Assembly (NCBI GenBank): GCA_014871385.1
Contig: CM026428.1
Span: 82,153-146,152, forward strand
DNA from: Ceratodon purpureus
Taxonomy: Eukaryota > Streptophyta > Bryopsida > Pseudoditrichales > Ditrichaceae
DNA: 64,000 nucleotides
Direction of reading: 5' to 3'
In this document: piece by piece, positions 1,108-61,660 of the stretch
How positions within the stretch are numbered: the first letter of the stretch is position 1
How the letters are laid out: every line of letters starts with the position of its first letter
Notes under the pieces: model-generated
Database searches by the model: none
Seen by the model: only the letters and a program-made list of their open reading frames with translations
What the model was told of the DNA's origin: nothing
Position numbers and translations under genes: made by a program

Positions 1108-2491
1108 TTGCACCATTTCGGCCTCACAGAATATGTCTCTTTAGAGGACATTGCTTTGTCTTGGTCATATGATCGTAATCTTTCATCGAAAGTATATAAA
1201 CCCACTTCGGTTTTTAAGCAATTTTCCTTCGTACATTTGTTGGATGATACTACGCCCTGTGTTTGTGCTACTTCTAAGCGGTTTAGACACTTTCTGGACC
1301 CATTAACCATGAATGAAACGTCTGAGTTTTGTCGGCCAGGGATGCATGTACGGACTATGGACCTCCATATCATACAGCACCCTGCGTTGCGCAAAGCTCT
1401 CTCGCTTGGTTTGAATCATATTCCTCTGTGACCCACTGACTTCCGAGAAGCATTGGACGTTATAGTGGAGGCTTTTAGACGGTTATATCAAATGCTTAAC
1501 TTACAGGCATTTGGTCTTGACCTGGACAGTGCTACGGACCACGTTCGACAGGTGTGCCGTGAGAAGCTACGTATTGCTGCGCATGATAACAAATTTGGAT
1601 TCAGACTCTCTGGTCCCTATTTGTTCGCTTTGCCGGCAGTACAGAACGAACTCCGATGGCTCCTATCTCATGTGTTCATATCAGGACTAGACGAAGCAGC
1701 GAACAACGCATGTTTTATGTGTATTAAGCACATACGCTTACAAGCTTTTAATCGGCTCATGGGTGATGATTTTACACCCTGCCGTGATAATGGTTTATGG
1801 CTCTTGCCTACGGTCATATTTGACCAGGTCAGATCCGAGATATTAGAACTGTTACCTGAATCCCCTGCGCCATATAATGCGCTCCCATTCCTTATGGCTG
1901 CGTATATGCTCCACAAACAAAAATATAGATGGCTAACTAATGCACACCAGACGGTGTACACAATTATCGCCACTTTACTGACGGTAGCTTCTGTTACCGT
2001 ACTGGATTCAGTCAAAGCTTGGGCTAAAAACATAGACCAAAGGTATCGAACTTTCTTGGGATGTGATACGTCAATATTCTGGATGGTTGATTCCATTGAA
2101 TCCATTCTCACCGTTGCGCTCAACATGCCTGATCGTATTAATGATATTTTCGTTGATGTCGAACGTTGCTATGAGTCTATCCCAGGATCCCTTTGGAGGG
2201 AAAAGACAACCTTTTTGAGGCACTGAAATTTCTAAGCGGCATTGGCTTTAGAGAAGCTGCCAGAGTACACCCTCGCTCAGTAACATCACTTTGGGTGAAA
2301 CTTGACCAGCAGGGTGTTCCCGTCTGTGCAAAATGGCTCACAACTCAACCAAAATCTGACCTCTGGATTTGCTTATCCGAGCAAAGGTTTCTAGCTCTGC
2401 ACTCATGGCTCAGCCAAAACTGTTATGTGACTCTTGGTGATAGAGTCTGGAGACAAACTCGAGGTATCCCAATGGGGAGGGAAGCTTGTAC
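1108..2491 (+). pseudogene. Penelope/TERT-like reverse transcriptase, N-terminal half (broken)
   Basis: The fingers and first palm motifs of a reverse transcriptase are visible. An LHKQKYRWLTNA segment precedes motif A (FVDVERCYESIP, about 2150-2185), and motif B-like QTRGIPMG lies at about 2455-2478. A [D]xxxxYxSIP motif with GIPMG is typical of Penelope-like and telomerase-type RTs. The gene is damaged by a TGA at 1429-1431 and a frameshift near 2190-2220. It is cut at 2491 by the giant transposon. When the insertion and one GTAC duplication are ignored, the frame continues without loss at 16189. I see no GIY-YIG endonuclease in the window, so assignment between Penelope-like and another RT lineage is not settled. 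Confidence 0.65.
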
Positions 2492-2566
2492 GTGAGCGGA
2501 GAGCGCAGAGCGGAGAGCGGTGAGCGCAGATTTGGAGAGCGGAGAGCACAGAATGGGAGACAGAAC
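2492..2566 (+). repeat. Left terminal inverted repeat of giant element copy 1
   Basis: The repeat is GC-rich and built from reiterated GGAGAGC(G/A) and GTGAGCGCAGA words. It matches the reverse complement of 16110-16184, nearly exactly over the outer 39 bases and with small indels further in. A shared block, GACCCTATAACCGTGGA, lies further in on both arms (left about 2669-2685, right about 16085-16101), so the inverted homology extends past the GC-rich part. Confidence 0.9.
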
Positions 2567-3460
2567 CTTAAAATAGCACTTTTTTTACTAAAAATAAATT
2601 ATAAAATTAGAAGATCCGAATATTCTTAGTATATTTTTGGGAAGTTACTAATTTTAGTAATTTAATTGACCCTATAACCGTGGACTAATTACAGTATTTT
2701 CATTGAATTTGTAGTTCATATTCTCTTTTCTTGGTGATTAATTTTTTAACGTGCACCAATTACTATGCTCCAGCTCCTTCTAACTAGTTCAGGCATACAG
2801 TAATTCCCCTTATCTTCTTAAATTTATATGCAAATTACTACTTAAAATGTTTTGGTATTGAACCTGTGAACAGGGATCAAGTAACATTTAATTTCATAAC
2901 ATTTTCTTAACATTGCTAGAATTCATCCACTATAATCTACATGCCTTTCTCCTTTTTTTTTTTTTTTTTAAAATTTTTTTTGAAATTTGTTTTGTATTTT
3001 TTATAAAATTCTCTTTATTCTATCTATCTTGTTAGAGGGGTCAAAAGCCTCCTTGCATTTGATTCTCTCCTTCATTTTATTTTCACAATCATTTTATTTT
3101 CACATTCAATTTGTTGATCTCCTTCATATTATTTTCAACCTTCATTTTAAATATTGCTATTCTTTTCTTTAATCTTTTTAATTTCAATTTATATGAATGT
3201 TTTTTTTTTTTTAATTATTTTTTTTTTTTTTTCATTCTTTAATTTTTTAAGAAAAATTTAAATGCTAAATGACCTCTGCTAAACCTTCATCTTTTTCCAT
3301 TCGGTTTAGGAGGATGACAACTTTTAAATGAATGAATAGCCGATTTTCAAGGGCGCCAAGCATCTTCTTCAGGGATATTTAAGATAAGAGTAGGGAATGT
3401 CTCTGCCTCTTTTGTATTGGTGTTATGTGAAGCTCTTTTCCGTAGTGCGGGACAGCAGCT
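2567..3460. other. AT-rich left arm of giant element, non-coding
   Basis: No convincing coding sequence is present. Long T-runs occur at about 2957-2970 and 3200-3232, in a region of very high AT content. This contrasts with the GC-rich terminal repeat and probably contains the promoter of the small ORF starting at 3461. Confidence 0.6.
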
Positions 3461-3913
3461 ATGGAAGACGTCAGAGATATTGTTGTTTCACTCGCTGACG
3501 ATGTTTGTCCATTTCAACCATATGTTGAGGTGGAGGACGAAGAAGAGGTGATGGCCAACAGCCAAGGGCGTCCGTCAACATCGGATGTTGCGGTACAACC
3601 GGATGTAAGAGCTGATCCTCCACGTTCAGAAAATTCGGATGAAATCATAGTGCTAGAGAAGGACGCAGATGTGCCTTTGCAACCACATGCATACTCGAAG
3701 GTTGGAAAGATCCAAAGGGGAACCTATTCCAGGGAATCAGTTAATCGGAGGCGGGGAGGTGGGCCATTGCTGAAACGATCATACCAAGGACATTTGCCAA
3801 GTGTGGGAACGAAAGTGAATGCGAATGTAGTTTCTCCTGTAGTACAGTCAGCGGCTGGCAGTCCTGCTGATAGTGTAGTGGGCAACCCTAAACGTGTTAG
3901 GTTCGAAGATTAG
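3461..3913 (+). CDS. Unknown 150-aa acidic/basic protein of the giant element
   Basis: An intact ATG-to-TAG frame of 150 codons. The N-terminal half is acidic (YVEVEDEEEV near residues 23-32). The second half is basic with a RRRGGG patch and ends with PKRVRFED. The PKRVRF segment resembles a nuclear localisation signal or an RVxF-type phosphatase docking motif, which is inference. I recognise no domain. It is convergent with the transposase gene, whose stop is 255 bp away. The corresponding part of copy 2 lies outside the window, so conservation cannot be tested here. It may be a single-exon gene or the last exon of one. Confidence 0.5.
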   Translation: MEDVRDIVVSLADDVCPFQPYVEVEDEEEVMANSQGRPSTSDVAVQPDVRADPPRSENSDEIIVLEKDADVPLQPHAYSKVGKIQRGTYSRESVNRRRGGGPLLKRSYQGHLPSVGTKVNANVVSPVVQSAAGSPADSVVGNPKRVRFED

Positions 3914-4167
3914 GACATCTAATAACAAGTATATGTTTGCCTTAATAAAGGGTACATGACAGGGGATACGAGGTATATAGTGCACTTCTTCAAGATACAA
4001 TGTATTGAAATAGAATGCAATCAATGTGAGCACCAAAGCCTTTAATATAATGAAAAAGTCAATACAGCTTCTCAATAGCTGACTTAGTATATGGTATATT
4101 ACTAAAATCATTCACTACGTGACAAATGGCCATTGTGGAAATGGAAGTTCTAAAGTAGGAGGGCTAC

Positions 4168-7100
4168 CTACTTCTTCGCCAAGGGGTGACGCAAGATTCC
4201 ACCCTCTAAGAGTAGCTTGACCTCGTTGAAGCTGAAGGTAGGCGCATGGATGAAAAGCTCCGCTTCGGGATCACGGTTGCAGACCTTCAAGAATATGTAG
4301 TATAGGTGCTTACAATACGTGAACTGAGTCTTCCCACGGAACGTAGTCATTGTCTTCTTGAATGCTGGGCAAGTGCAACCAGGGTAAGAACTGATGGTAA
4401 TCTGGTACCGTGTGATGTGTGGAGCGACGCCCGAATCCAGCCCAATGATGCAACCGTGGCCCGGCTCAGGTATCATGGTGACGGAACGGAGGCGCGCTTT
4501 AAGAGATTCGGAGGAGCCCATGGAGAGTCGCTGCGCTTGATTGGGACGAGTGGCAGTGCGCTTCACCATCTTGCCGTCTCTCTTCCCTGGGTAGCGGTCA
4601 GCGTCTGCAGGGACTGGCACTGAGCTGAGATTTGCAGGAGGCGGGGCAGAGGAAAAGAGGCGTCTTGGGGAGACCGGTTTCTTCTGCGGAAGTTGAAAGC
4701 CCGCTGCTTCCAGGGCAAGAATCTCAGTAAGTTTTAGGTTAGTACCTAGTTTCACTGGCCACACCCCTGGAATGGAGGGGAATTCCTGGTCCTTTGAGTA
4801 GTGTGCTACCCACTTGCGCTTAGAGCCTTTCACGCAACGCTCAATATCGTCGGAGCAGAAGAAGAACTCAGTCTTCTCCACTAGGTTCCTGCGATAGTTA
4901 GTCCAGAGCCCAGTGTAGGTCGGTGCAGCTGTGCAATGGGGCCCCCTGACGATTCTCTCAGTGCACTTCTTCTTTGTTTCAGCTCTTTGGGCCCAGCAGC
5001 ACTTCGCAGAAAGTTTGTGAAGTCTCGAAATGTGCCACTCCTTCACGTCCACCTTGGTTTCTTCAATCGCGTTGACATGGTGAATGCCGCCCTTGTTCAC
5101 AGGTGAAGGTAAAGGGGAATCAACTTCCTGGGCAGGAGGTTGCGTACATTGTACCTCGGTGTCGTGTTCGGAGTCGTCTTCCACAATGACGGGCATCTGC
5201 ATAGGGCGAGCCCTGACGGCACGTCTTGGGCCTCTTGGGCGTGAGAAGTTGGTCTTATCCGGGCGATGAGACTCTTCGTCAGCTCCGATAAGGACGTCGG
5301 CTTTTCGCTTCTGTGAACCGAAGACTTCCGCTCCAGGCATGATAGGCTGACGGGTGCAGAACTCATCCGCGCCTGGCATATCGAGCATGGGCTTGTCGAG
5401 CAGTGTAGGATTTCCCCATTTCTTCGCGTTGCGTTCAGCCATCCGAAGCCTGAGTTCCTTCTTGGATGGTCCTGTTCCGCCGACGTCACCTTTGAGGAAC
5501 TGGTAGTAGTTGACAACCTGTAGAAAAGCCCGAACGAAATCGTCCACGGTAGCAACGTAGAGGTCGTTCCCGTTGTTTCCAGAAGCTTGGAGCCACTTGT
5601 TGTGAACTGTTTTGGCGAGGTTACAAGTGGGCATCTCTGTGAGTTCCTCTTTCGTGAATTTCTGCAGATTTGACAGTAGGTGACGTTAGATTCACGGATT
5701 AGAGTTCTGTAGGTTAGGGCTAGGAAACCAGTATGAAAAACATGAAAACGGAGTGCGTAGAGAATACCTCGGTCATGAATCCCCCCCACTGGCGGAAGCG
5801 GTGGTGCCAGAATGACAGCCACTGATCGAGTTTGATGAGCCCGCTCTCGCCAACGACCCCGGTGGATGCCCACCATGCTCGCAACGCGTGGTACAGAGTT
5901 TCCGCCTCTGCCATGCTGGTCGCATTCTTGTACTGAGTGCACATCTTCTTGTGCTGTTCCCAGAGTTCTTCGGGGAAGTGCTTCTGCGTATACGCCACCA
6001 TGTTCTGAGTCCAGTGGAACAAGCACGACCTCTCCCGGTCCTCCATTGGGTCCTCTTTGTTGCCATTGCCGTAAAGGATCCGCACTGCATTCCAATTGGC
6101 CTGTGCGTTATCCGCCATGAACCCCTTGAAGTTCGGCGCTGCAACGCCATTGATCTCCATGACCAGGTTCAGGTTTTTCCAGAAGACGAGCTGGGCGTCC
6201 GTGTCCTCGGACTGCATGTCGCAAGTGGCGATTGTCATCACGCGGCAGTAGGTGGCGTCGTACACATGGCACGCCATCGTCGACCAGTCTTTGACGCGTT
6301 TGACATGGTTGAACATGATCCATGCGTTCTCCAAGTCGCCACCAGCTTGCATACGGCTGACCAAGTCGACACCACTGCCCGGCCCGACCTCCGACATCTT
6401 GAAGACAAAGACTTTGTCACGCATAGATCCCTGACCAGGAAACCTATTCTCCTGGACATACGCCCAGAGACTGTTACCACGGAGCTTGGTGATACCGTCC
6501 ATGATTCCGTACCTTACGAATTTTTTGAAGGTGGCGACTTTGTTGCGGATGTTGGGCGACGCCATGTCTTTGCATCCATCCAGAACAGGAACCAGCTCCT
6601 CCATCGTCAGCTTCCTCGGTGGTGCATCCTCGGGCTGTAGAAGGTAGCTCCCGATGAGGAGTTTGCTCGCTTCCAGGACGACGGCGCTCTTTGTGGCTTT
6701 GTTGTTCATCTCTACCTGCTCTTCTATTAAGCTGCTAATCTCTGCTTTAGAGTCTCTGTAGTCTCCAACTTTCACTGGATGATCATGTGTTCCTATGTGA
6801 ATACAAGCTCTAGTCTGATTCGGTTTGCCCACAACGTAATAAATCTTAGCCTCGCATGTACCTACACATGATGGAGGTTCTTTACATACCTTGCACACTA
6901 GCGTGGAGTCAGATGGAGGAGGCTGGTCCATGACAAAAGCTTGCAAGGTACAGCCTTCGAACTCAGTCCGTTAACCTCGAAGATCTTGGGAACACGCTTC
7001 AGGAAGTCACACTCATTGTTGCTGCAGCGGAGCCATCCGACGCAGGTGGAACTTCGAAAAGAGAGTCCGAAGTCGTTTTTGATGTTTGTTGTGATGGTCT

Positions 7101-7845
7101 TGGTCCACAAGTGTCCGTCGTATCGTTTGTCCATTCCCTGCATGGACTTGGCGGCGAGCTTAGAGGAACCTGAAGCAGCTGGGGGCAACTCAAAAAGAAC
7201 CGGACCATCAAACTTCGCAGGCAAGTACTCAACTCTCTCGTGTCTAATAGTGGAATAGTCTATCTTTTTCAAAATGTTTTTTGACCCACGCGTCTTAGCA
7301 ATCTGTTGAAGGAGGGGGACAATGCTAACTGTGACCTGGGACAATGGAGGAGAGACATTGGAAGGAGGAGCATCTGCGTGGACCTTAGGCACGGACTTGA
7401 CGGGACTAACTTCGTCATCAGAAGAGAGAGATATGACGGTCGGAGGAGGTTTCTCTACATCTGAAGTCTCGGTACCAGGCTCGACTTTGACCTTGACATC
7501 ACGAGGTAAGGGAGTCTGAATTGTGCAAGTAGACGAGCGGCGGGGGGTGAGGATCTCAGTGGATGCAGCCATCAGAGAATCAGTAAGACCATAGACTCTA
7601 TAGGATCCAGGGAGAAGTCTCCACTGCATGATGTTGTTCTCATCTCTCATTGAAGGTTGCCCGAGGGTGTGGGTAACCTCGGCAGTAACGTCATCAAAGA
7701 TCTCCTCCTCTATACTGATGGAATCCTCACGAAAATGGAATCTGAGACTGAGACGAAGAGAGGACACCGTAGCTAGACCATCGTCATCTACGCGAAACCT
7801 TAGAGGGATGCCCATGCCTTGGGCGTACAGACAGACCATCCCCAT
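4168..7845 (-). CDS. MULE-like transposase with zinc-binding N-terminal region and SWIM finger
   Basis: Likely the transposase of the giant element. The start is placed at the ATG at 7845 (MGMVCLYAQ) because copy 2 has an ATG at the same point; total is about 1,190 residues. One intron (5662-5767, GT...CTGCAG) is clear. In order: an unknown N-terminal 240 residues with a Ser/Asp-rich segment; a WRKY-GCM1/FLYWCH-like zinc region (WLRCSNNEC, then CKVCKEPPSC and THDHPV); a MULE-type DDE core with first Asp in HVYDATYCRV, second Asp in GFMADNAQANW, and downstream CLFHW; and near the C-terminus a SWIM finger (CTCPAFKK...CKH). The frame shifts by one base near 6965, just after FEVNG, with a TAA immediately upstream in the second frame. 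This copy therefore makes a full protein only if frameshifting or a tiny splice occurs; otherwise it is a recent pseudogene. Confidence 0.82.
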
Positions 7846-8623
7846 ATTCGCAGGCAACACAGAGATACTAGCGGAACAAGGGAGAAGAGTGAGGGTACTA
7901 GCGAAGCAGTATCGCGAGAGCAAAGTGAGAGGAATGATGCATCGCTGTTGATCGTTTTATTCAAAATGGAATGTCCATGTGGACGACTAGGTAATGATTC
8001 ATTCTGGTACGTAACAAATGTATGATTAAAGAGAGAGGGCGCTAACTGATTAGAATGTGCTTTTTGCAGGCCCATAAATATGTGGTAAGATTTTCAGAAT
8101 ATCGCTTTCAGTATTTGGAGTAGATTCTATTTTTTATGGGGTGTGATTGGATTGAAAAGAGTCGTATTTTCCTTCTGCATTTAAAACAATAAATATATAG
8201 AATTTGAATTAATCAAATTCATGCATTAGTTATATATATATAGGACAAATGCAAGCATATGATTTATTCAAATTCTATATTTTATTCAGTGATAGAGTCC
8301 CTCAATTTTCATAATAGATTGCTGGATAGACAGACTGTGAGTGAGATTAGAGTGAGCCGTCACTTGCATCCATATTTAATACAAGTATTTCAGTGCTTAA
8401 TTCAAATCTTTAAATATTTTATGGGCTTGGCTTATTCTCTTCCATTATAGATTGATCTCATCAGCTTTAATTCAAAATGCATTTATTTATAGTTTACGTG
8501 GGTTAAGAATAAGGTAAGTACTTAGGGCTGAGTCAGAGGGGTTGAAGGTTTGGGATATATAAGAAGAGGGGAAGTGTGAAGGTGAACATTATTGTGAGGA
8601 GAGTTCTCTCGTTAGTTAGACAC
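7846..8623. promoter_or_regulatory. Divergent promoter region between transposase and CTD-heptad gene
   Basis: About 780 bp separates two divergent genes in both copies (copy 2: 62811-63597). The region is AT-rich, with a run of TA dinucleotides near 8230 and a TATA-like GATATATAAG about 70 bp before the rightward ATG at 8624. A block around 8295-8470 is strongly conserved with copy 2, including GACAGACTGTGAGTGAGATT and ATTGATCTCATCAGCTTTAA. This non-coding conservation suggests shared regulatory or transposase-binding sites. Confidence 0.6.
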
Positions 8624-11531
8624 ATGAAGGAGAGTGGAGGGCCAGCTCCCTCCGCTTATGTCACTCCTAAACCTAGGAGAAAACCAGGCAGAACAGATTT
8701 CACGGATAGAAGAGCGAGAAAGAGGAGAGAATCACGTAGAAAGGTGCAGTCCAAAGGTAACATTTTGAGTGCACCTCTAAAGGGACAGGGAGCTCGACTG
8801 CCTTTGGCCCGTAAGTTTTATAGCATTCGTAAACTCGTTCTAGACTCTATACCGGACGCTAAAGATGAGATATTAGATGGGCTTGTAGTTGAGCAGGAAG
8901 AGATGGATATTATAAGTACCAGGCAAAAACAATTAGAAATGACAGCAGATTTAGGTCCCAGGTGTAGTGAAGCTCTTGAGACTCCGCAACCTTCTTTGAG
9001 CTTTAAGGACTCTTCGTCAAAAGCAACAGATTGTCAATCTGAAGATATTGTTTACGCAGGAGAAGTAAGTTCTAAACAATCTTCCTTAAAATTGTTTGAT
9101 GGTAGTTACGCATTATATATTTTCTTATCAGTTGTGTGTAATCTAGTTTGATGCAATGACTAACAATGAGGAGATTATGGGTAAAAGACTTGGAACATCC
9201 TTTTAATCAAGTACATTCACAATGATTCAAATTGGAGAACCTAGGTTAGGTCTAGGCCTCACGGATTTCTAATGAGCATTGCATGTCATTCTTTGGAAAG
9301 ACTACGGAGGAGCTTAGGGTTTGGGGGGAGATCGCAGCTCCAAGCAGAGCATCCTCAAAGGCAACTGAAGCCTTGCGAGCCGAGGCGCGGAGAGCTCGAG
9401 TTCGGATCATGGAGGCAGGCGAGGGGGGGCAAGCAATGGCGGGACGCGCAGGCCGAGGAGGGAGGGCGGGCCGGGGAGGGAGGTCGAGCCAAGCTGGGAG
9501 GGTCGGCCCAGGTGTGAGGGCGGTCAGGGGAGAGATGGTGGAAGCAGATGACCTTTACAACGTTGACATAGGTGGAGGGGCCGGAGACGCGTTTGGGGAC
9601 GGTGACGACGAGGAGAGAGACAGCCAAGGCGGAGGGGACGACGACATTGAAAGCCGTGGGGACGGCGAAACGGACGACCGCGACGAAGTCGAAATGGAGG
9701 TCGCGGGGGATGACACTGACCCGAATTCGGCCATGGGTGGGGTAAGTCTTTTTGCGGATTTTGCTATTCAGTTTGTATTGTGGGATTGGAGGGATGCGAG
9801 CACCGAGGGGAGAGTGAACTCAATAATATAGAGAGGGAGCACCGAGGCAATGGCCGCGAGGGGGAGCTCTGTGAAGACGGAGGTGGCCAAGGCCATGGCG
9901 GAAGATTGGGTCGCATTCGGAGCAGAATGCGGGTTCTGGGTGATGGGAGAAGTGGAGGAGGAGGCCGCGGCCGCGATGGGGAGCTTTGTGGGGAGGGAGG
10001 GGACAGAAGCCATGGCGGAAGATTGGGTCGCATTCGGAGCAGAATGCGGGTGCGTGGTGATGGGAGAAGTGGGGGAGGAGGCCGCGGCCGCGATGGGGAG
10101 CTTTGTGGGGAGGGAGGGGACAGAAGCAATGGCGGTTTTTTGGGTCGCATTCGGAGCAGAATGCGGGTTCTGGGTGATGGGAGAAGTGGGGGAGGAGGCC
10201 GCGGCCGGGATGGGGAGCTTTGTGGGGAGGGAGGGGACAGAAGCCATGGCGGAAGATTGGGTCGCATTCGGAGCAGAATGCGGGTGCGTGGTGATGGGAG
10301 AAGTGGGGGAGGAGGCCGCGGCCGGGATGGGGAGCTTTGTGGGGAGGGAGGGGACAGAAGCCATGGCGGAAGATTGGGTCGCATTCGGAGCAGAATGCGG
10401 GTGCGTGGTGATGGGAGAAGTGGGGGAGGAGGCCGCGGCCGCGATGGGGAGCTTTGTGGGGAGGGAGGGGACAGAAGCAATGGCGGTTTTTTGGGTCGCA
10501 TTCGGAGCAGAATGCGGGTTCTGGGTGATGGGAGAAGTGGAGGAGGAGGCCGCGGCCGCGATGGGGAGCTTTGTGGGGAGGGAGGGGACAGAAGCCATGG
10601 CGGAAGATTGGGTCGCATTCGGAGCAGAATGCGGGTGCGTGGTGATGGGAGAAGTGGGGGAGGAGGCCGCGGCCGCGATGGGGAGCTTTGTGGGGAGGGA
10701 GGGGACAGAAGCAATGGCGGTTTTTTGGGTCGCATTCGGAGCAGAATGCGGGTTCTGGGTGATGGGAGAAGTGGGGGAGGAGGCCGCGGCCGGGATGGGG
10801 AGCTTTGTGGGGAGGGAGGGGACAGAAGCCATGGCGGTTGTTGGGGTCGCATTCGGAGCAGAATGCGGGTGCGGGGTGAAGTCCAATTTGTTGTTTCGAT
10901 TTGAGTTTATTACAGGATTGTTAACATAGTCTGGGTTTATGGTGCAGGAGTACATCGATCCTGCCACAGGGAGCGAAGCTGATGGCCCCATTCCTGCGGA
11001 AACAGAGGTACTTAAATTCGATTTATGAATTCTAATGATAATCCTTCATTCTCAAATAGTAATTTAACCTTATTGTCTTTGTTGTTTTTCTAGGTATGTT
11101 CTGCTGCACCTCTGTCCATCAGTTCCCCGATTACAGTGATCAATCTTTCGGACTTATCGGATTCATTTGACCAGCCCTATTGTACCTGTGCTGTAGCAAA
11201 TTCTGTAGATATAGGTGGTGTTCCTTTCGAGGTCCAGTCTCCACAGTACATGCCCACCTCTCCCGTTTACATGCCTACATCACCAATGTACATGCCTACT
11301 TCTCCTGTTTATGAGCCGACATCTCCCAGGGTTCTCCCCCAGGATTCTCCACCTATGTCTCCACCTTCTCCTTCATCGCCAATTAGGATGAGGAGGCCAG
11401 CTCATGTAGTTTTTGGTCTACCGGCAATCCTGCCCTCTGCTGTCCCACGGACCAGGCGATTTTGGAGGAGGCGCCTTCATTGGAGTAGTCCATCTTCTAG
11501 GGAGTACTATAGGCGTTCACCACGTATCTAG
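8624..11531 (+). CDS. Basic nuclear-type protein with Pol II CTD-like heptads (multi-exon)
   Basis: Exon 1 is 8624-9064 ([13 protein letters not shown] start; GTAAGT donor). Exon 2 lies within about 9283-9741 (GTAAGT donor; acceptor unresolved). Exon 3 is 10948-11007 and exon 4 is 11094-11531. Copy 2 has the same exons, with exon 3 exactly 60 bp in both. Exon 1 encodes a dense basic tract ([16 protein letters not shown]), a probable nuclear localisation or nucleic-acid-binding segment. Exon 2 is Gly/Arg-rich, then acidic. Exon 4 holds four consecutive heptads of the form Y[ME]PTSPx (11247-11330), like the Pol II CTD repeat YSPTSPS. The C-terminus is Arg-rich (RTRRFWRRR). The TAG at 11529-11531 is at the same place in copy 2, which argues for a true end. 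With only 122 bp to the next exon, one long transcript with the methyltransferase gene remains possible. Confidence 0.6.
9742..10947 (+). repeat. 117-bp tandem array (about 9 units) in intron of CTD-heptad gene
   Basis: The motif GGGTCGCATTCGGAGCAGAA recurs at 9908, 10025, 10142, 10259, 10376, 10493, 10610, 10727 and 10844, a strict 117-bp period. Units differ mainly in a GAAGATTG versus GTTTTTTG block and a GTGCGTGG versus GTTCTGGG block. Since 117 is 39 codons, open frames appear in several frames on both strands (up to 407 codons). I treat these as by-products because the array lies between a GTAAGT donor at 9742 and an acceptor at 10947. Confidence 0.85.
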
Positions 11532-11653
11532 ATGCTATAGCACACTATCCTTTCGCTGTTTTAAGATATCATTATATATGAGGTTATGACGTTCTTCCTT
11601 TCCTATACTTGTCTACTTTTGTCTCACTATGGACGTTATATGATCTCTGCCAG

Positions 11654-14600
11654 GGTACTCAAACACAAGACGTGTTGCCATCATCATCTTGCCCTGTAGC
11701 CTTAAGCAATGCCATGGAAAGTGAGTTGCTTCATCGAACGAAGTACAAGCCAGACCCCATCAGCGTCATCAACAACCTCCGCATTGATCCAGTGAAGAAG
11801 TCCCGTATGCTTGTGCCGTTGTGTCGGATGATCCCTATGGCGAAAGTAAGGCCAGTTGGGGAAATGGGAGTACAGCATCTCGAGCGCGAATTCGTTAATG
11901 GGTACAGAGACAAGGATCGAGTTATGTACATTTCAATGTACAACCACGAAGAGCAGACTGCGGATGTTACAGATGCAATTATAGGTGAGTGGAGCGAATA
12001 TTGGCAGAGAGCCAATGAAGCTTTCGAACTCGACCTCCAGTCAGACCCTGACTTGCAGCAGTTCTCCGGAAAGATGTTTTATGTCTGGGAAGGTAACCAT
12101 CGCCTTTCGGCTTGGTTTAGACATATTAACTCACATCATTCTGAGGACCCGGAGTGGCACATATCCGTTCATTGCATAGTACTAGACCCACGTGGCCAGA
12201 TTGGGAACCTCCTCCATGCCATGCACGATATCAACTGGTATTTACATCTTCCCTAATATAACTTTTTATGTTCTAGAGGCACATTATTTGTTTCGAATTT
12301 CGACTTAATAAATTATTTATCAAACTTCAGGTCTACGGAGAATGATCACGTGAAGAGCAACCTCCCAGCCAAGCTCTTTCGAATTCGGTCTTTCGGTGTC
12401 ATGAAGTTGGAAGAGTTCAAGGATCTTCTCACAGATGAGGAATACCACATCTGCTTGACGAACAAGCCATCGATTCCCGGATGGTTCACCTTGACAACGA
12501 AAGTCTTCATTTCGTTTCTTTACCGCGTAAGTTTCTACTACTTTATTTCCTCCTTTGTCATTGACGTTTTTGTTTCTTAACTAATTGAATCCCATCTTTG
12601 TTTTACAGCGAGAGATCTCGGTTGCTGCAGACGAGGCAGTTCGAGCATACAAGGATAAAACACCTCTGGATGAACAGACAGCAACTGGTGTCTGGGATGC
12701 AATGACCACGGCATCAGAGAATATGGTTGAGTCCATCAAGAAGAAAGACTTCACCAAGTATTTGCAACTAGCGAATCCAAAGAACGGTGATGACTTCTTG
12801 GCAGAGGTTAGTTCACAGACATGCCATCGCCATTTCTTCACCTTCGTTTGTACTTCTAGGCCATCTACTTATGGTTTCTCTGATATTGTCTTTTTGCAGA
12901 TCAACCGGCATTACAGTAATATCTCAAGGCCAGAGATGACATTGGATAAGTTGTCGAAGATTGTTCCTACAGCCGTCGATGCAAAATACAAAGCGCGGTG
13001 GCTAAGGTGGTGGAACTCTTCACCAAGTTTGCGGGCTTCCTACCGGTTCCTCCCTCCTGAGTTCAAGGAAGCTGACCTCGACCCATGGTTGAACAAGGCA
13101 GCATTCTGGGCAGGGGTACGAATTCTTGAAAACTTCTTTTTAACACTACCTTTTTATTTGGTTGTCACGTAAAATATTTGTCATAATCATTTTCACTTTC
13201 ATGTGGTAGCTGGAGGAAGCCGTGACAACTGCGTTCGAGGATATCTGTAAGGCAGAAAACCTGGTCATTAAGTGGAAGGCAACTCCAGGTATCCTTCGGC
13301 CAGATGCATATGTCGAGAGTTGGCGTATCTTGTTATGGGATAAGGCATTTCCAACGTTTCTTGGACGTCGTGCAGAGAAGCCTTTCGATAAGAAATCGGA
13401 TTTCACCAATTTTCCGGGAGCTGCCGATGCAGTCAAGCGAGTGACTTACCGGTATGAGAATGCTACATTTAATTGCTACCTCAAAGTTGTGTTGCTTTAT
13501 CCAATTCTAGAAATCGGTTCTGACAAAGTTCTTTACCTTGATCAGGTATTTCAAGAGAGAGCTTGTTCCGAAAGGTGCCGTTCACGATGATGTCCTCCCA
13601 TCATACTTTGCTGCATGGATTCAGAAAGGCTCTGACCAATGTATTTACACCCCCCAGCAAGTGAAGAAGTACAAGCCTCCGCACTTGACCAGTGGATGCT
13701 GGTATCTCGATTGCATTGGTGGTTTCGTAATCGACTCAGAGGCCGAGGTTAAGGCACTGCATGATGGAGGATCGGTGACTGCCGATGACTCAAGGGCCGA
13801 TTCACAGGATGACGAAGGCCTGGAGGATCAGTCCTCTGCACCTCCACCGAAGAAAGGGCGGGCGCGGAGACTGCGAAAATTGGGATCTAAGTCCCAGGGC
13901 TCTCAGGAGACTGGTGCAGAGTCCTCCGCACCGGAGAAGGGCGCTGCCGTTCCATCTCCTGTTATTGTCGTTCCCAATCCGTCCCCTACTCCTGCGCCTT
14001 CATCGGTCAGTGCATCCGCTATCACCAGAGGTCTTCTGGAGCAACGGAAGGCCAGACTTCTCCCGGCAAGCACCTCCTCCGCAGGAACTCCCCATTCCAC
14101 TGGTGTTTCTATCATCAACTCATCCGTGACCCCGTTACTGGTTCGTAACATGGAGCTCAAAGACAAGGGTGGCCATCCGGATTGGGTGAAAACTCTGGAG
14201 TTCGTGCGCAAGGTTTGATTCTCTTCTTACATAATACGATATTACATACACTTTAATTTATTTCATATAGTCTAACCCTATTTTCTTCTTTCTGCAGTTT
14301 GGACGTGGCCGCCAGAACGAAGTACCTGAGCGGTGCCAGGATGAGAATCATCAAGGAGTGGACTTGATCATCGTTGACATCCCTGAGAATCTTCCTGTCC
14401 CTCTTGTTTCCGACCCCCCTACAGTGATTCCTCCTTGGAACTCCCGTGAAAAGGATTATGTGTACGACATTTTCTATTTCGCAAATCTTTACTTGCAGAA
14501 TGATGGCGCTTTGTGCATCATCTACAACAATGATCAAGCGTTGGCTACGGAGATTCTCGAAGAAGCTAGCGCCACTAAGTTCGTCCTTTACAAAGACTGG

Positions 14601-15650
14601 TGGGGCTTCAATGTGCTCGGCCTGACTTCTCCTACAAACCCCAAGAACCTGGTAATTTCATCCTTTCCTTTCCTTCACTTTACTTAGTACTATCCCTTCC
14701 GTTTATTCATTCTGACATAATTTGGTTGATTGCAGACTAATCGGTTCTGGATCCAAGTCTTCGTTCGTGGTGGCGAGCCGCCATCTAAGTTCTCCTTTCA
14801 AACGAGGAAATCCGATGTCATACATGGCGACCTCAACATTACCGAGAGTGATGCGATTTTCAACTGGACCGACGTTGATTCTCAGCAAATGAATGGGGAT
14901 GTTCCATGGAGAGGGCCAAGGGAGAAATCCCGTGAGATGATGGAGAGCATAATTGTAGAGCTCTCGAAGCCCGGCGACATAGTCCTGGACTGGAAGGCAG
15001 GAACAGGTAATCGTTCTTACATGTCTCTACAGAATTATTCCTCTGATTCCTTCCTCAGTTTCTCACATCTTCACCTTGCTTTGAGTTGCAGGGGCCTCTG
15101 TCAAGGCTTGCCAGGCTATTGGTCGTCATATTATAGCTTTTGAGGATGACGAAGCCATATTCAACGCCCTTCTCAAACCGTATATGGCAGCAAAATCTCC
15201 CATGGGCCCCCCTAAACACCCTAGACCGGCAGCAGCAGAGGAAGCACCAGCAAAGAAACAAAGACCCACTAAGTATTGTAAGTCTTACTCTAGAATTTGT
15301 ATGTTTCGTGCAATGCATCTAGTATTATTCCTGTACGCAAATTTACTTATTCGATCTAACCACTTCTGGCTTTCTATTGCAGAGTAGTTGTGACAACACC
15401 GCCAAGTGGGCATAGAGCCGTGTTCACTCCATCGTGGCGTATTAATTCCAGCCCGGTTCAGCCTTTTATTCTTCCGGACTATGCAGAGGGCTTAGCACAA
15501 GCGCTTCAATGTGGTGCACTTAGATATGTTCCTAGTCGGCCCACTAATTTTGATCCCAGGGCCCTTCTTTTTGTCGATGAAGAGGCTGTAGAAGGAGAGT
15601 CTGAGTCATCGGGTTCTGAGAGTGGAAGTAGCGACTGTAGCATCTTCTAA
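11654..15650 (+). CDS. ParB-like domain plus N4/N6-type DNA methyltransferase fusion
   Basis: Ten exons: 11654-12237, 12331-12526, 12609-12806, 12900-13115, 13210-13451, 13546-14212, 14298-14651, 14736-15006, 15092-15277 and 15385-15650. All join in phase to 1,059 residues, and every junction recurs in copy 2. The 5' start is unresolved: the first exon has an upstream acceptor but I find no ATG exon. Residues 54-180 resemble a ParB/Srx-type domain: RMIPMAKVRPVG...HLEREF, then YVWEGNHRLSAW. A Ser/Pro/Lys linker occupies about 600-690. Residues 720-935 have the circular order of beta-class DNA methyltransferases: a motif IV position (DLIIVDIPENLP, 724-734), then motif I (GDIVLDWKAGTG, 899-910). 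The catalytic D/N/S-PP-Y/F/W is replaced by DIPEN in both copies, so activity is uncertain. It may bind or mark DNA, or be a non-catalytic relative. Confidence 0.78.
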
Positions 15651-16109
15651 GTTTGAAAGAGGCCTCGCTCTATCATTGTTTCCATTTGATTTGATTTGAT
15701 TTCAGTGGAGTTGATTACATACTGCATCGTCTACTCTATTGCAAACCACTAAAATATTTATGATTCTCATTTCCAGTTTATACTCGTGTATACCTTGCCT
15801 CCTTTATGTTCTGTGAAAGTTGTTTCTTTCCTTGTGCATTTACATAATCCTATGAAAGAATTATTTGTTTGATCTAAAACTCAACGCCTAATCATTGTAT
15901 CTTGCCCAAACCCATGATAAATCTAAAGGAATGTATGCATGACGTCATCATGACATCAGCCCTAATTTGTATCTTTGAGAACAAACGTAATAAATTCTTA
16001 CCAGAGATAACCCTAAATTCCACGGTAATATACTCTTTTTCTAAAAAAAGTGTCAAAATTAAGCCTTAATTTAGTAATTTTCCACGGTTATAGGGTCTAC
16101 TTTGCTTTT
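15651..16109. other. Right arm of giant element copy 1, non-coding
   Basis: AT-rich 3' flank of the methyltransferase gene. It aligns in reverse complement with 50256-50520 of copy 2 (for example ATGACGTCAT near 15939 and the AATAAATTCTTACCAGAGAT block near 15989). Copy 2 has about 1 kb of extra sequence, including a gene, at the point where copy 1 shows only a short TATACTCGTGTATACC segment. No ORF is supported here. Confidence 0.7.
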
Positions 16110-16184
16110 GAAAATTTTCCTAATTGTCAATTCTGTGCTCTCCATTCTGCGCTCACCGCTCTCCGCTCTACGCTCTCCGCTCAC
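16110..16184 (-). repeat. Right terminal inverted repeat of giant element copy 1
   Basis: Inverted match to 2492-2566, ending CCGCTCAC immediately before the second GTAC duplication at 16185-16188. It contains the same reiterated GAGAGC/GCTCTC words. Confidence 0.9.
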
Positions 16185-16827
16185 GTACGAACTTTCCCCT
16201 CCCAATGGGCTTCAGTTGTTCACCGCTTTGGTGCAACGTGTACCTTGTCTCATACGAAGTAAGATTCATACAACGACTAGCGAGATTGGGACGAGTAGAT
16301 CTCTTAAGACGCTTTCGCTACGCATTTCGATATATTGACGACATATGCTGGTTAAATGTGCAGTCCCCGATGGATTTCCTAGCACATGAGCAACCACAGA
16401 CTGAGGATAATCCCTGGTGGATTTATCCTCTCCATATTATTGATGTTAAACCTGAGACTGAAGCTTTTGATCCGGATGACCCCTCTTGAGGAATCATGGC
16501 TCATTTCATGAACATGCGAATTAAATTGGATTGCAACCGACATGGGAACTTCCACATGATGAAATTCGACAAGCGACGGTCCCTGCCGTTACGATACACC
16601 CCGTTCATAAAATTCCATTCGAATCGATCTGTGAAACAGTCGTACAATGTGATCGTATCTCAAGTTCTTCCTGTGTTATACACATCCAATGACACGCCTA
16701 ATGCGATTGAAGAAATTTCTCTCTTGATCGAGACAATGACATCTAATGGCTTCCAAAAGCATAGACTTTGTAAAACGGTGGCTGAGTGGCTCCTAGCAGG
16801 GCTTTTTCGAGCTATTAAATTGGATAT
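16185..16827 (+). pseudogene. Penelope/TERT-like reverse transcriptase, C-terminal half
   Basis: This is the continuation of the frame cut at 2491. It shows the catalytic motif C (FRYIDDICWLN, about 16315-16347). After a TGA at 16487-16489 the same frame continues with a thumb-like segment (FHSNRSVKQSYNVIVSQVLP) typical of Penelope-like RTs. The frame is cut again at 16828 by an LTR-like element. Defects: one TGA, two large insertions, and the damage in the N-terminal half. The last seven residues of the apparent ORF to 16852 belong to the inserted element, not to the RT. Confidence 0.7.
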
Positions 16828-16900: not shown

Positions 16901-17012
16901 GTTCCGAGTATCGTCCAGGGACTCAATAGTGTTTCACCAAGTAGTTACTCGTAATAGTTCCGAGTATCGTCCAGGGACTCAATAGTGTTTCACCAAGTAG
17001 TTACTCGTAATA
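16901..17012 (+). repeat. 56-bp direct tandem duplication
   Basis: Two adjacent identical 56-bp units (16901-16956 and 16957-17012) beginning GTTCCGAGTATCGTCCAGGG. The sister element at 53899-57553 has this unit only once, so the duplication is specific to this copy. Confidence 0.92.
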
Positions 17013-17853
17013 GTTCCGAGCTTTGCCACTGCTAGGATAGTGTCTCCGGAACGTAACTCCTCGACTATCTCTCTCTCTCTTTCTCTTTCTCGTCAGGTGT
17101 TTCGTCCACAAACCCCAACGTCTCGGAACAGCTACCGTTTCACAACTGTCCTAGAGAACTCTGGCCAGCAGGTCACACAGACGACCACTTCCGATCCGTG
17201 AGGCTACAACGACATACCAATCCGGATCTGGGAGAACCAGGATCCAATTATCCCTAGGCGACCCGTGCCACGTTCCGAATTCCCCTCTCACAGTGTACGG
17301 AACCTCTTCAGAAGTTCAGGGAGCCCAATCAAGTACCCCTCGATCCGCTTCGACCCTAGCGACGGCTATTCTGCGTGAGGTTGGGTTGGGGATGGAATAG
17401 TGAGGCTTCACTCCTACGACAATCCACTAAATCTTTCCGCTCAATCCCATTACCCTTCCGGTTCGAGTCTCGTCACAACTCCCGTCACCTTCCTATCCGA
17501 GCTACAGCGGAACTCTCATATCCTTCCCGGATCATTCACACTTAACTGGAAACCACGCACAGTACTTGCAAAACACGAATACTTTACTGATAAGGAATAT
17601 AGGAAGAAAACATGCAAAACGAAGACCCGGACTGCATCGCCTTCCCCGTTTAAGTAATCAAAGGCTTTCACAAAAGCGGCGGCGCTAGCAGTTCAATCAA
17701 AAACCCTAATTCCTAATTATCTACTTAGAATTCTACTTTACAAATAATCCGGATCTCCCGATCCAAAATCTACTCCTATAAATCCGGAAAGTGACTGCCA
17801 GTTGCAGCGAGAAGAATCTACCCCATCTTCGTCTTCTTGTGGCTCTCCTGCTC

Positions 17854-20023
17854 TCAGTCCTTCTCCTTCGACCTGGTCATGCGTGGCTCGGATCCTTCTG
17901 TCTTCGCTGCCCGCTCCGCCTCACGCCTAGCACTCCGTTCCGCCTTTGACTCCTTCGTCTTGGTCTCCAATGAAAGCCGGGTAACGACCCGGTTCTTCGG
18001 AGATTTGGGAGACTTCGGCAACATATGCGAGGGAGGGGTTCCGGACGTAGGGGTCCGAGTCCCAATTCCTGCTGTCCCAACCGGGGAGCTCGCATAAGTT
18101 TCCGAGTCGGACCCGGAAATCGTAATGGGTCCCTTCGCTGTTGGTTCCTTCCTCTTCCTCAAAACTCTCCGGGCACTGGAACTGTCAACAGGGGAGTCCA
18201 CCACTGGCGTTCCGGTGGGCGTAGGAGTCACCGTTCCGGTCTGGGCTGTGGGTGAAGGGGTAAGTGCCCCCTCCTGAGTCACTCGGGTCCGTCCGGTTGG
18301 TGAAATGGACCTTCCCCATTCCGCTCCGGCCACCTCCCCTTGGTAAACCGCAACAATCACGGACTATCCGAGTGTTGGAAGAACAACCGGTTGCACAGGC
18401 CGGGTTACCTCTTCCGTAACCGTCCGCTCCTCGGATCGCCTAACGGTGACTGTAGTCCCTGTCACCTCGCCTGACTGGTGGGGATCGCGCAGCCTTGCTG
18501 AGCCGTGCTGGCTCCGGGTGACGCCACCTGACCTTGGTGTTCCCGGATCATATCCGCGATGGTCCGAGCCGGTTTGAAGATATCCGAGTCGACCGCCATC
18601 TGCTCCTCAAGCTGGAGGTTGCGCTCCAATGGGGTCCTGAATGCTACACCGTGGGATTCCCCTACAATGGTCCGAGAGGGAGATCCAGGAAACCTGGTTC
18701 CGACGCTGGGACTTCTGATTCCTGGATTGAGCAGCTGCCGAACCTTCTCTAGAATCTAGTTCATCGAGTGCTCGCATTTGGAGAGGATCGTGATGATCTT
18801 CTGTTTGTTCTCCAAATCTGCAGGTTGCAATACATTCTCGTCGAACAACCGGGCCTTGTTGACTATAGCACCTGGATTCCCTACCAACTTCCGAAGCTCA
18901 CCCAAGGTCTCCTCTTGCTCGACATCGAACTTCCGGATCTCCTCGCTCTTCGTCGCCAGTTCCCTCGTAAGCTCCTGCAACTAAAGCTCCAACTGCTTCT
19001 TCTCGCTCCGAAGCTTTGGGGCGTCCTTCAAAAGCTCCACCTCTCGGATCACCTCCTCCGGTAAACAGCCCCCGAGCGACGTGCAGACTCTCCGGAACAG
19101 CGTCTCGATCCGATCGTAAGAGGCCTGCGCCCATGAGTTTCCTCCCGAATTCCCCGGAACGATTCAACCGGAAATCCCCGCTCGGAACTGACCTCCTTCC
19201 GTTCTGCATCTCCCCAGGCTGTGGAGGGCTCCACGTGTTGCAACGTAGCGCGTTCCGATCGCGATTTGGAGTGGGCCTTCGTAGCGCCGGGATTCGGAAT
19301 GATCGCCGTATCATCATCCCCTTCCGTGGACGCCGTATCCGAGGTTTCGCCGTGCGGTACGACATCCATCCCTGGCGGAATCTCCTGAAAGCAGAGGAAG
19401 TTCTTCGCCGTCGTATAAGTCTCCTCCTCCTTATCCATCAGCAAGCTATACGCGTGATAGAGGTGGTAGAGAAAAGGGGGGATTGGCGTCGGCTTCTTTC
19501 CGATCGAGGGCACCAACTTGTGCACGGTTTCCGCCATGAGCGCAGCCCAATTCATTGGACGCTCCCCTGTGTACGCTCCGAGTATGGTGTTTCCAACCGT
19601 GATGGTGACCTGTTCCGGTTTCAACGGATACAGGATCGGAACGAGGAAGGCTAGGACCTGTCTCTGTCTCCTATCCTTACAGGCGTCTATCCAGTACCCG
19701 TTGTTCTTATGGATCTTCTTGTGGAACCTATCTTGCACGTACTTATTCGTCCGGGTTGCCCAAAGGAGTCCGTTCTGCTCGAAACTGTAAGTTTCCGCCC
19801 ATTGTTCCGCGCCCCACAGCGTGGGCTTGCCCCGGATCGTGTTGTCCCACCTATTGTCCGGCCCGTCCAGAATCTCCGCCACCATCGTCTCATCCTTCAG
19901 CAACCATGGCCGTGACAGCAAACCCTCACACCTCATCCGGGCGAGGTCGTCAATCAACTCGTTCATCGCTGACTCTCTCTCCGGAGTGGCGGGGCTAAGA
20001 ACTCTACACTGAACGTGCGCCAT
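17854..20023 (-). pseudogene. gag-like protein of LTR-like element, frameshifted
   Basis: Close relative of the 731-aa protein at 54424-56619. The N-terminal 300 codons are open (start MAHVQCRVLSPATPE at 20023), and the shared core includes GPDNRWDNTIRGKPTLW and VNWAALMAE (here MNWAALMAE). The frame breaks near 19115. Later parts reappear in other frames: the coiled-coil segment at 18756-18980 and the Ser/Pro-rich tail at 17854-18360. Multiple shifts and stops mark it as dead. Confidence 0.75.
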
Positions 20024-20611
20024 TTCTACGTCTTACTTCTCTCCCTTTGCGATCCGACAACAAGAAACCCGGCAATCCAACTGCCAGTGAATCGGAATAG
20101 ACAAAACACCTCACCGCTCTTTCACTCTCTACTCCCAGTCCGCAAAAAGGAACTCCAAACCCTAACACTCCCGCTCATATACCCAGGGTATCATAAACGC
20201 TGCGGCGGCCCGTAATTGCAGCCGCCACCGTACCGAGCTAGGCACCTATCCGAGTCATGATGACTTCCGCGTCGTTTTGGATCCTAGACACGGTTACAGT
20301 AACGGTCAGTTCTCGGATCGTCGACCCGTACCGAGTTCCGGGATCAGGGTTCCGAGAATACTCCAGGAACCTTAACGCAGGAATCTACGGGTTACACAAT
20401 GGCTGTTTCTGTTTTACTTCATGCTACATAGTCGCAATTAAATATGCTTTCTGAGATATTTCTCACGGCGTGAATAACGCTGCTTGAAGCAGTCCTATAA
20501 GTTACCCATAGACCCTCCAACTATTTTATTGCTCTAGATAAAGTTGCGTTTCTAATAATGCAATCTATGTTCTGACTGATGAGAATGAGCCTTGTAAAAA
20601 AGGTGTGCTGT

Positions 20612-50047: not shown

Positions 50048-50176
50048 CTACACCACAAGCTGCTGATTCATCAACCCCAGTCTAGCTTGTTCTTGTAAAA
50101 TTCTTGCATTTTCCATTAGCATACGATCTTGTTCTCTCTTGTACTCCAAGCTTTCACTGAAATGTGGGGAAGGTTC
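50048..50176 (-). pseudogene. C-terminal fragment of a coiled-coil ORF, cut by giant copy 2
   Basis: The minus-strand frame ending at 50048 reads SLEYKREQDRMLMENARILQ and closes with LGLMNQQLVV. Such charged helical tails occur in Myb-like partner proteins of PIF/Harbinger elements. It is convergent with the Harbinger transposase, so I infer it is that element's ORF1. Its upstream part is replaced at 50181 by the terminal repeat of giant copy 2. Confidence 0.4.
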
Positions 50177-50180
50177 GTAC

Positions 50181-50255
50181 GTGAGCGGAGAGCGTAGAGC
50201 GGAGAGCGGAGAGCACAGAATGGAGAGCACAGAATTGAGTTTAAGGAAAATTTTC
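50181..50255 (+). repeat. Terminal inverted repeat of giant element copy 2
   Basis: Matches 16110-16184 in reverse complement, with the same GGAGAGC-type words. The outer 28 bases equal the copy 1 right end. Confidence 0.9.
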
Positions 50256-61601: not shown

Positions 61602-61602
61602 G

Positions 61603-61660
61603 TACACCCACAACCCACAACCCACAACCCACAATTCGTACTCCCACAACCCACAACCGA
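61603..61660. repeat. (CCCACAA)n short 7-mer run
   Basis: Imperfect CCCACAA/ACCCACA repeats directly after the last 129-bp unit. The 7-mer period recalls plant telomere repeats (CCCTAAA), but the sequence differs. Confidence 0.7.

Follow-up and report, generated by a model that had tools for sequence, protein, structure and literature searches.

Relation to Known Transposon Systems

The evasion of silencing by transposons has been worked out in molecular detail in few cases. Anti-silencing has been shown for VANC of the Arabidopsis VANDAL elements (PMC5735166, PMC10398659), and fungal DNA transposons, KDZ among them, encode TET/JBP dioxygenases (PMC12730594). ParB-like plus N4C/N6A methyltransferase accessory proteins are described in algal transposons, e.g., Sola1-1_Ec32 of Ectocarpus, in a report stating that such proteins are known from green and red algae and naming, for red algae, giant EnSpm elements with accessory genes (PMC12477816).

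The stretch of Ceratodon purpureus DNA analysed here (64,000 nt, referred to as the window) carries a transposon with likenesses to these systems. As Sola1-1_Ec32 is described, the two share a single ParB-like plus N6/N4 methyltransferase protein of about 1,050–1,100 aa, encoded on the strand opposite the transposase within a large DNA transposon. Compared by description, the carrier is Sola-1 in the alga and a MULE/IS256-type transposase in the moss, and the moss element has in addition arrays, a partner gene with heptads and a ParB half that varies between copies. The first-pass annotation had regarded the gene combination as undescribed, a claim that is not supported in view of the algal reports of ParB-methyltransferase accessory proteins (PMC12477816), so that the principle is not new. 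A literature search did not find a MULE-like carrier of a ParB-methyltransferase protein in moss, a mosaic of near-identical transposase and, inside two allele groups, near-identical methyltransferase with a ParB half that is often saturated at synonymous sites yet open in nine of nine readable copies, or a tandem array, often with a dyad, in an intron of a heptad gene.

As described for VANDAL/VANC (PMC5735166), the transposase is far more conserved than the accessory protein, and the (putative) targets lie in fast-changing tandem repeats of introns and other non-coding parts. VANC carries DUF1985/DUF287, whereas the moss accessory protein carries ParB and methyltransferase domains, and its anti-silencing role is putative. 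The pairing of a transposase with a DNA-modification gene is shared with the TET/JBP transposons, although theirs is described as a demethylation-type enzyme (PMC12730594). The 10-bp target site duplication (TSD; MULE range 9–11 bp), the IS256-like DDE fold and a CxxH motif are MULE-like, as may be, less firmly, a putative GCM-like zinc fold and a SWIM-like motif; unlike MULEs, the element has no PF10551 sequence match and carries accessory cargo. KDZ elements have an 8-bp TSD and a transposase of a different superfamily.

Ends and Target Site

The first copy in the window (c1) is delimited by the following features.

2477–16199: whole element, 13,723 bp, based on ends and TSD
2467–2476: left copy of the TSD TCCCAATGGG, an exact 10-bp direct repeat adjoining the terminal inverted repeat (TIR)
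16200–16209: right copy of the TSD TCCCAATGGG, likewise exact (10 bp) and adjoining the TIR
2477–2530, + strand: left TIR, beginning GAGGGAAGCTTGTACGTGAGCGGAGAGCG; 8/8 full copies are identical over its first 72 bp
16146–16199, − strand: right TIR, from an inverted-repeat search and comparison of copies

The inverted arms (2474–2530 and 16146–16202) are GC-rich, 57 nt long and 89% complementary. A 26-nt end pattern allowing up to three mismatches has six matches in the 64 kb, at three ends, and none in 100 shuffles. An exact 10-bp TSD is present in all eight copies with both ends in hand; among these, the left 25 bp are identical and the right 24 bp vary by at most one base. Joining the flanks with a single TSD copy produces one open reverse transcriptase frame (...RQTRGIPMGFSCSPLWCNVYLVSYE...). 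The earlier description of a complete TIR transposon with GC-rich inverted ends that interrupts a reverse transcriptase frame is thus upheld. Its limits, given as 2488–16188 and defined to the base, were too narrow, since at both ends another 11 bp belong to the TIR, which reaches 2477 and 16199. Nor is GTAC the duplication, as had been proposed: it is its own reverse complement and internal to the TIR, and joining the flanks at GTAC keeps the frame too, at the cost of 12 surplus codons within the reverse transcriptase motif. The true TSD is the 10-bp TCCCAATGGG.

Copies of the Family

Ends of the element occur at many places in the moss genome. A second copy (c2) lies in the opposite orientation in the same window:

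50166–64000, − strand: c2, extending beyond the window as far as contig position 151,119; 18,802 bp in all, with TSD ACATTTCAGT

Copies were picked by left-end identity. Among 11 distinct left-end copies, eight contain the full set of three genes within their two ends, with frames broken in some of them. In C2a the three genes are present and the element extends past the fetched DNA, in C7a the accessory genes are inverted, and in C5a none of the three genes was found within 20 kb of the left end. The gene set is therefore recurrent. These three copies were excluded from certain counts, as was C98, a redundant contig of C7b with the same flank.

Transposase

7845–5768, − strand: exon 1, with a PB1/ubiquitin-like N-terminus, putative GCM-like zinc region and DDE core; frame broken in c1
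5661–4168, − strand: exon 2, splice junction read from the sequence; open in 7/8 full copies

The transposase is of DDE type with an IS256/MULE-type catalytic fold. Exon 2 carries a lesion in C11, and the complete frame is intact in three of the eight full copies. A SWIM-like motif (CxC..CxH) was spotted by eye in exon 2, where the Pfam scan gave no SWIM match. The transposase did not match the Pfam MULE profile PF10551 at E ≤ 10. With 150 of 384 candidates scored, at least 93 places in the genome match this profile, none of them in the window, and hhalign of the transposase to families built from these loci gave no signal. Close kinship with the genome's own PF10551 MULEs was rejected on the profile listing and the hhalign result. 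The label given at first, MULE-like, is retained on the strength of fold, motif and TSD, and does not denote sequence membership.

ParB-Methyltransferase Gene

This gene has ten exons on the strand opposite the transposase and encodes one protein.

11654–12237, + strand: first resolved exon, ParB/sulfiredoxin-fold domain (VWEGNHRLSAW)
12331–12526, 12609–12806, 12900–13115 and 13210–13451, + strand: exons 2–5, the diverse half; AG/GT borders in 9/9 copies
13546–14212, + strand: exon 6, S/P-rich linker, from splice borders; divergence falls within this exon
14298–15277, + strand: exons 7–9, N6_N4-type methyltransferase domain (motif IV DIPE, motif I DWKAGTG)
15388–15650, + strand: last exon, from alignment of copies

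The ParB-like/methyltransferase assignment made at first sight was confirmed for both halves. The best 27 Foldseek matches were all ParB or sulfiredoxin proteins, as were the best 13 of VIA, and PF01555 scored 35.8 bits on the spliced protein (cut-off 26.7; profile positions 141–218 of 221). PDB sequence matches of the methyltransferase included DpnA (E = 1.3e-4) and CcrM (E = 6.6e-4); the NCBIfam and PDB sequence searches matched only its C-terminal part. Catalytic motif IV of N6/N4 methyltransferases is D/N/S-PP-Y/F/W. Because it reads DIPE and not DPPY in 9/9 copies, the methyltransferase may be inactive, judging from sequence; DIPE pairs with the DpnA DPPY only in a sub-significant stretch of the alignment.

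No readable copy (nine, C2a partial) has a broken frame, and dN/dS is 0.10–0.26 for dS up to about 2. A Pfam scan of the spliced protein returned PF01555 and a weak RITA match, the VANC domains DUF1985/DUF287 being absent; for the heptad gene this check covered the heptad ORF. A protein search with the whole spliced protein gave no match among 7995 scored candidates, a search with a single exon gave 42 matches, and a scan of viral contigs for the ParB exon gave none.

Heptad Gene

8626–9064, + strand: gene 2 exon A, basic N-terminus, from the best-ORF listing of c1, C11, C5b, C2b and c2
9283–9741, + strand: probable exon B, glycine/acid-rich, an open frame to a GT donor; start uncertain
10948–11007, + strand: exon C; AG and GT borders kept in 9/9 copies
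11094–11531, + strand: exon D, heptads (YxPTSPx) like those of the Pol II CTD

At exon A the best-ORF listing gave another ORF for C13, C7b, C3 and C2a, and an ORF similar to exon B is found in these four. The CTD-heptad gene of the first-pass annotation was recovered, with three to five heptads in 9/9 copies; PF05001 scored 16 bits on the heptad ORF, under its cut-off of 20.3. A single fused heptad-ParB-methyltransferase protein was considered and rejected, as the heptad exon meets an in-frame stop in 9/9 copies; by eye, it has no in-frame donor common to the copies. Without fusion, the first resolved ParB-methyltransferase exon has no located start.

Mosaic Divergence between Copies

The transposase differs little between copies (dS 0.03–0.14), whereas dS of the ParB half runs from 0.40 to saturated in all pairs except C13–C5b (0.02). 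The methyltransferase half shows dS of 0.01–0.11 inside each of two allele groups, and within these groups pS falls at codon 600–660 (about 13.9–14.1 kb when converted from codons), inside exon 6. Trees of the modules conflict (eight copies), and the ParB half following the transposase tree was rejected. The copies are strongly mosaic, a varied ParB half being joined to a homogenised transposase and, inside the two allele groups, to a homogenised methyltransferase half.

Tandem Arrays and Dyads

9852–10879: tandem array of c1, 117 bp × 8.8, located between exons of gene 2; dyad of the unit, CGCATTCGGAGCAGAATGCG

A copy-specific array occupies the same place between heptad-gene exons (a presumed intron) in 9/9 copies, and in eight of ten further copies. 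The 16-nt core of the c1 dyad CGCATTCGGAGCAGAATGCG has nine exact occurrences. Short dyads were found in many arrays, not all, and surfaced only as inverted repeats: a search for shared k-mers across array units gave no motif clearly above shuffles, save A-rich words. Dyads recur in unit families that BLAST does not join. Four patterns were fitted to the dyads, and the C13 and C5b arrays lack all of these.

In a hold-out test, example dyads were noted before further copies were fetched, and their cores were then sought in eight new arrays. In seven the cores were matched more closely than in shuffles at p < 0.05 (L048, L049, L050 and L051, p = 0.003; L044, L046 and L053, p = 0.033–0.043), and L047 gave p = 0.093. 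The closest core for L044, L046 and L053 came from the C13/C5b example, and this core does not form a dyad by itself. A pattern-free inverted repeat beat shuffles at p ≤ 0.025 in six of the nine first arrays, and in three of the eight new ones (L048, L049 and L051). Two consensus dyad patterns, drawn up, unlike the example dyads, after the new arrays were in view, were non-significant in C13 (p = 0.87), C5b (0.16), C3 (0.11) and C7b (0.058).

Proposed Function and Alternatives

Most of the examined copies have an array of possible protein-target motifs of their own, suggesting self-marking against silencing. The family is a DNA transposon that combines a transposase of IS256/MULE type with an accessory module found repeatedly. 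The reading tentatively preferred, at somewhat less than an even chance, is that this module forms a sequence-specific self-recognition (self-marking or anti-silencing) system whose logic resembles that of VANDAL/VANC; we infer binding, modification and anti-silencing by the module. The ParB-like half would bind dyads in the array of its own element, as ParB does on parS palindromes, then load and perhaps spread, recruiting to the element both the methyltransferase half, whether enzymatically active or a dead reader/scaffold, and the protein with CTD-like heptads. The element would thereby be marked or opened and escape host silencing, with private protein-array pairs restricting the effect to the element itself and its nearest relatives, and recombination would repeatedly couple varied specificity cassettes with a single successful pair of transposase and methyltransferase. 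Possible but doubtful is a fuller version, in which a bacterial-type ParB clamp and methyltransferase would make up a self/non-self system with a private ParB half and parS-like dyad array in each lineage. Cassettes would be shuffled at the protein linker onto shared catalytic parts, as in restriction-modification specificity subunits, and a Pol II-CTD mimic would keep the element open for transcription.

The arrays might instead be neutral slippage satellites, their dyads arising by chance or as a by-product of hairpin-driven slippage, a reading considered somewhat unlikely. Array units do turn over between copies, pattern-free dyads are significant in only 3/8 new arrays, and for several arrays no motif reached significance. 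Distance between motifs correlates with ParB distance (r = 0.44, p = 0.003; 12 copies, hand-picked motifs), which linkage could explain because ParB and array are adjacent, and it also correlates with transposase distance (r = 0.34, p = 0.030; eight copies). Against this, the array keeps its place in nearly all copies, the same dyads occur in otherwise unrelated units and in the hold-out set, and they are nearly absent elsewhere, the four fitted patterns having one occurrence in 124 kb outside arrays at up to one mismatch.

An unlikely alternative gives the ParB-methyltransferase a part in transposition, marking or pairing ends or copies (e.g., to restrict cutting to DNA that is newly replicated or modified), with arrays as loading sites and no anti-silencing. 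It would fit the homogenisation of both transposase and methyltransferase half, and the ParB-methyltransferase frame being open where the transposase is broken, as expected for a function needed in cis; however, the dyads are located in arrays and not at the TIRs, and the ParB half departs from the transposase in its trees and in distance (r = −0.04). That this half has simply evolved fast or under relaxed constraint, rather than coming from old lineages that recombination joined to a common transposase and methyltransferase, is very improbable and already disfavoured. The first 480 codons are visibly less identical in protein between copies than the methyltransferase part, but in four distant pairs the first 540 codons are almost saturated at synonymous sites and show little non-synonymous change (pS 0.56–0.90 vs. 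pN 0.08–0.27), and splice sites and frame are kept.

Under the self-recognition reading, the many protein-array pairs of a single genome, which differ in the recognition half but share constant machinery around it, would constitute a natural experiment on self-recognition specificity. The family also bears on whether ParB-type clamps can function in the nuclei of plants and whether plant transposons make use of N6/N4-type methyltransferases, live or dead.

Other Sequence Features

3461–3913, + strand: 150-aa ORF with no assigned function
8192–8283: inverted repeat with 46-nt arms

The ORF is open in all 11 distinct copies and broken in the redundant C98. The inverted repeat lies in the divergent promoter region, and c2 has a similar sequence.

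Ends, Target Site and Copies of the Element

The complete copy c1 runs from 2477 to 16199. The inverted ends noted in the first-pass annotation are genuine and well in excess of what chance would give, but the limits of 2488 and 16188, there taken as defined to the base, lie inside the true ones, and the GTAC read as a duplication is palindromic and part of the terminal inverted repeat. The target site duplication (TSD) is an exact 10 bp, TCCCAATGGG, at 2467–2476 and 16200–16209. Joining the flanks over one TSD copy restores a single reverse transcriptase frame that spans the motif GIPMG-FSCSPLWCNVYL, in keeping with the interrupted frame described earlier.

In the genome containing the window (362 Mb, 151 contigs), the left 124 bp occurs in at least 40 places at 99–100% identity (best 40 of 1,420 candidates) and the right 120 bp in at least 40 at 100% (best 40 of 1,405), end matches that alone do not prove full copies. 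For nine copies picked by their left ends, 20 kb each was compared, together with one small contig and the distal end of c2, the second window copy (which starts at 50166 in the opposite orientation); C98 shares its flank with C7b and was counted as that copy. The matching ends expected of other copies were found in all eight two-ended copies (c1 included), each with an exact 10-bp TSD and a length between 13.3 and 19.2 kb. The right end is absent from the fetched DNA of C2a, C7a and C5a. C2a has an array of 8.7 kb, and C7a (loci L014, L015) carries an accessory module of the C13/C5b type, inverted, behind the transposase half, with a 213-bp array (about 35 units). Behind the transposase half of C5a (loci L018, L019) lie other long ORFs (955, 504 and 492 aa), and the ParB-methyltransferase gene was not seen in the 20 kb examined. 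The 110.5-Mb contig C6 holds, by hand count, about 60 of the 93 PF10551 MULE places listed.

Further features of the window are:
3461–3913, left-end ORF of 150 aa that is open in all 11 distinct copies
8192–8283, in the divergent promoter region of c1, an inverted repeat whose arms are 46 nt long
63163–63259, inverted sequence in c2 similar to the repeat at 8192–8283
16957–20333 and 54113–57480, inverted pair of about 3.4 kb (82% identity), the latter member within c2, where it sits in the intron that precedes exon 6
54424–56619, long ORF belonging to this pair
48231–49472, ORFs that we take, by motif, to resemble a Harbinger-type DDE transposase
50709–51308, 199-aa ORF close to the right end of c2, within a segment of 1.1 kb; the segment is present in C13, C5b, C3, C2b and c2, and absent from c1, C11 and C7b

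The ParB-Methyltransferase Gene

The gene has ten exons with AG/GT borders in nine copies, within two limits: C2a covers only exons 1–6 and part of exon 7, and the exon 6 acceptor of c2 was removed with the excised insert and so fell outside the check. Its frame is open in all nine (C2a in part), C11 having lost its terminal stop at the position compared, and dN/dS is 0.10–0.26. The first resolved exon has the predicted fold of a ParB/sulfiredoxin domain (pLDDT 80.3). An N6_N4 methyltransferase domain makes up the last third; its motif IV reads DIPE in 9/9 copies and aligns to the DPPY of DpnA, in an alignment below significance at that point.

A protein search with the ParB exon gave 42 matches. 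The longest contigs of one of these (P0075) and of a transposase relative (P0038) are equal at 674,632 bases, which suggests that the two are linked in another genome too. A ParB-methyltransferase protein of a transposon is already described in Ectocarpus, in a report that gives similar proteins for green and red algae as well, citing Iyer 2011 and Petroll 2025 (PMC12477816). The combination had been put forward as undescribed; this does not hold for the protein itself, but a search of the literature, without most subscription journals, listed no report of it with a MULE or in a moss.

Mosaic Structure

Between copies, transposase dS is 0.03–0.14 (nine copies), and codons 1–480 of the ParB-methyltransferase gene range from 0.40 to saturation in all pairs (nine copies) except C13–C5b (0.02). 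After codon 640 the copies form two groups, c1 with C11 and the other seven, with dS of 0.01–0.11 inside each group and 0.63–0.71 between them (about 1.0–1.1 with the partial C2a). Profiles of pS in 60-codon windows, made for 12 of the 36 pairs, fall within groups from 0.25–0.67 at codons 540–600 to 0.00–0.10 at 660–720 (C13–C5b excepted), a drop located within the S/P-rich linker and past it. Pairs from different groups (c1–C13, C7b–C11) lack a sharp fall, and their pS declines slowly to about 0.3. C7b shows an additional, earlier fall against C2b and c2, near codons 300–420. The right-hand 408 bp is a separate matching block with 92–97% identity to c1 in C13, C7b, C5b, C3, C2b and c2, and C11 matches c1 in one 81% block running to the end.

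Module trees built from eight copies disagree. With the ParB data, both the methyltransferase tree and the transposase tree are rejected (p-AU <1e-40), and the transposase data reject the other two trees (p = 1.6e-6 and 4.8e-5). The methyltransferase data reject the transposase tree and accept the ParB tree (p = 0.19). The mosaic is most simply read as recombination between old lineages.

Gene 2 and Its Tandem Array

The exons of gene 2, the heptad gene, comprise one that is basic, one rich in glycine and acidic residues, one of 60 nt and one with 3–5 YxPTSPx heptads; this heptad exon carries a frameshift in c2 and is shorter in C2b. Against the Rpb1 CTD repeat the heptads score 16 bits, below the profile cut-off, so the likeness is suggestive. 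All nine copies readable there have a tandem array between exons of gene 2, in the same position each time; judging by the conserved exon borders, it would be intronic. Leading periods are 108–453 bp, with 2.1–75 units, and only C13 and C5b of this set have a clearly related unit.

Inverted repeats in the units exceed 200 dinucleotide shuffles (p ≤ 0.025) in six of the nine (C7b, C5b, C3, C2b, c2 and C2a); c1 (p = 0.055), C13 (0.23) and C11 (0.24) do not reach this level. Example dyads, short inverted-repeat motifs within units, were set down before ten more copies were fetched (2.5 kb each). Eight of these have comparable arrays; none was found in the stretches of L045 and L052. The central 12 nt of the example dyads gave p = 0.003 in L048, L049, L050 and L051, 0.040, 0.033 and 0.043 in L044, L046 and L053, and 0.093, short of significance, in L047. 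A pattern-free inverted-repeat test was significant in three of the eight (L048, 0.005; L049 and L051, 0.010) and not in the other five (p = 0.085–0.58).

The 17 arrays make up nine unit families unconnected by BLAST matches of at least 50 nt, and dyads are common to different families: CATTCTGTACAGAATG is found in C7b and L048, and CTGTCG.....GACAG in c2, L049 and C2b. The consensus patterns TTCGGNNCCGAA and CTGTCGNNNNCGACAG, composed with the new arrays already known, occur with at most two mismatches in all eight of them (p = 0.002–0.070); in the first set C13, C5b, C3 and C7b all fall short of significance. Four patterns, fitted to the same arrays in which they were counted, have 158 occurrences (overlapping counts) at up to one mismatch in 26.4 kb of array, against one in 124 kb outside, and are absent from C13 and C5b at that threshold. 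ParB distance correlates with motif distance (r = 0.44, p = 0.003; 12 copies, hand-picked motifs), but so does transposase distance (r = 0.34, p = 0.030; eight copies), making the former weak evidence for co-evolution.

Relation to Known Systems

Proteins of the ParB family bind palindromic parS sites. In VANDAL transposons the motifs bound by VANC proteins lie in tandem repeats that change fast, introns included, and the transposase VANA is far more conserved than VANC (PMC5735166; PMC10398659). The layout here is similar, with ParB in the place of VANC, and this analogy makes a putative sequence-specific self-recognition the best reading. Such self-recognition may lead to DNA modification, anti-silencing, or both.
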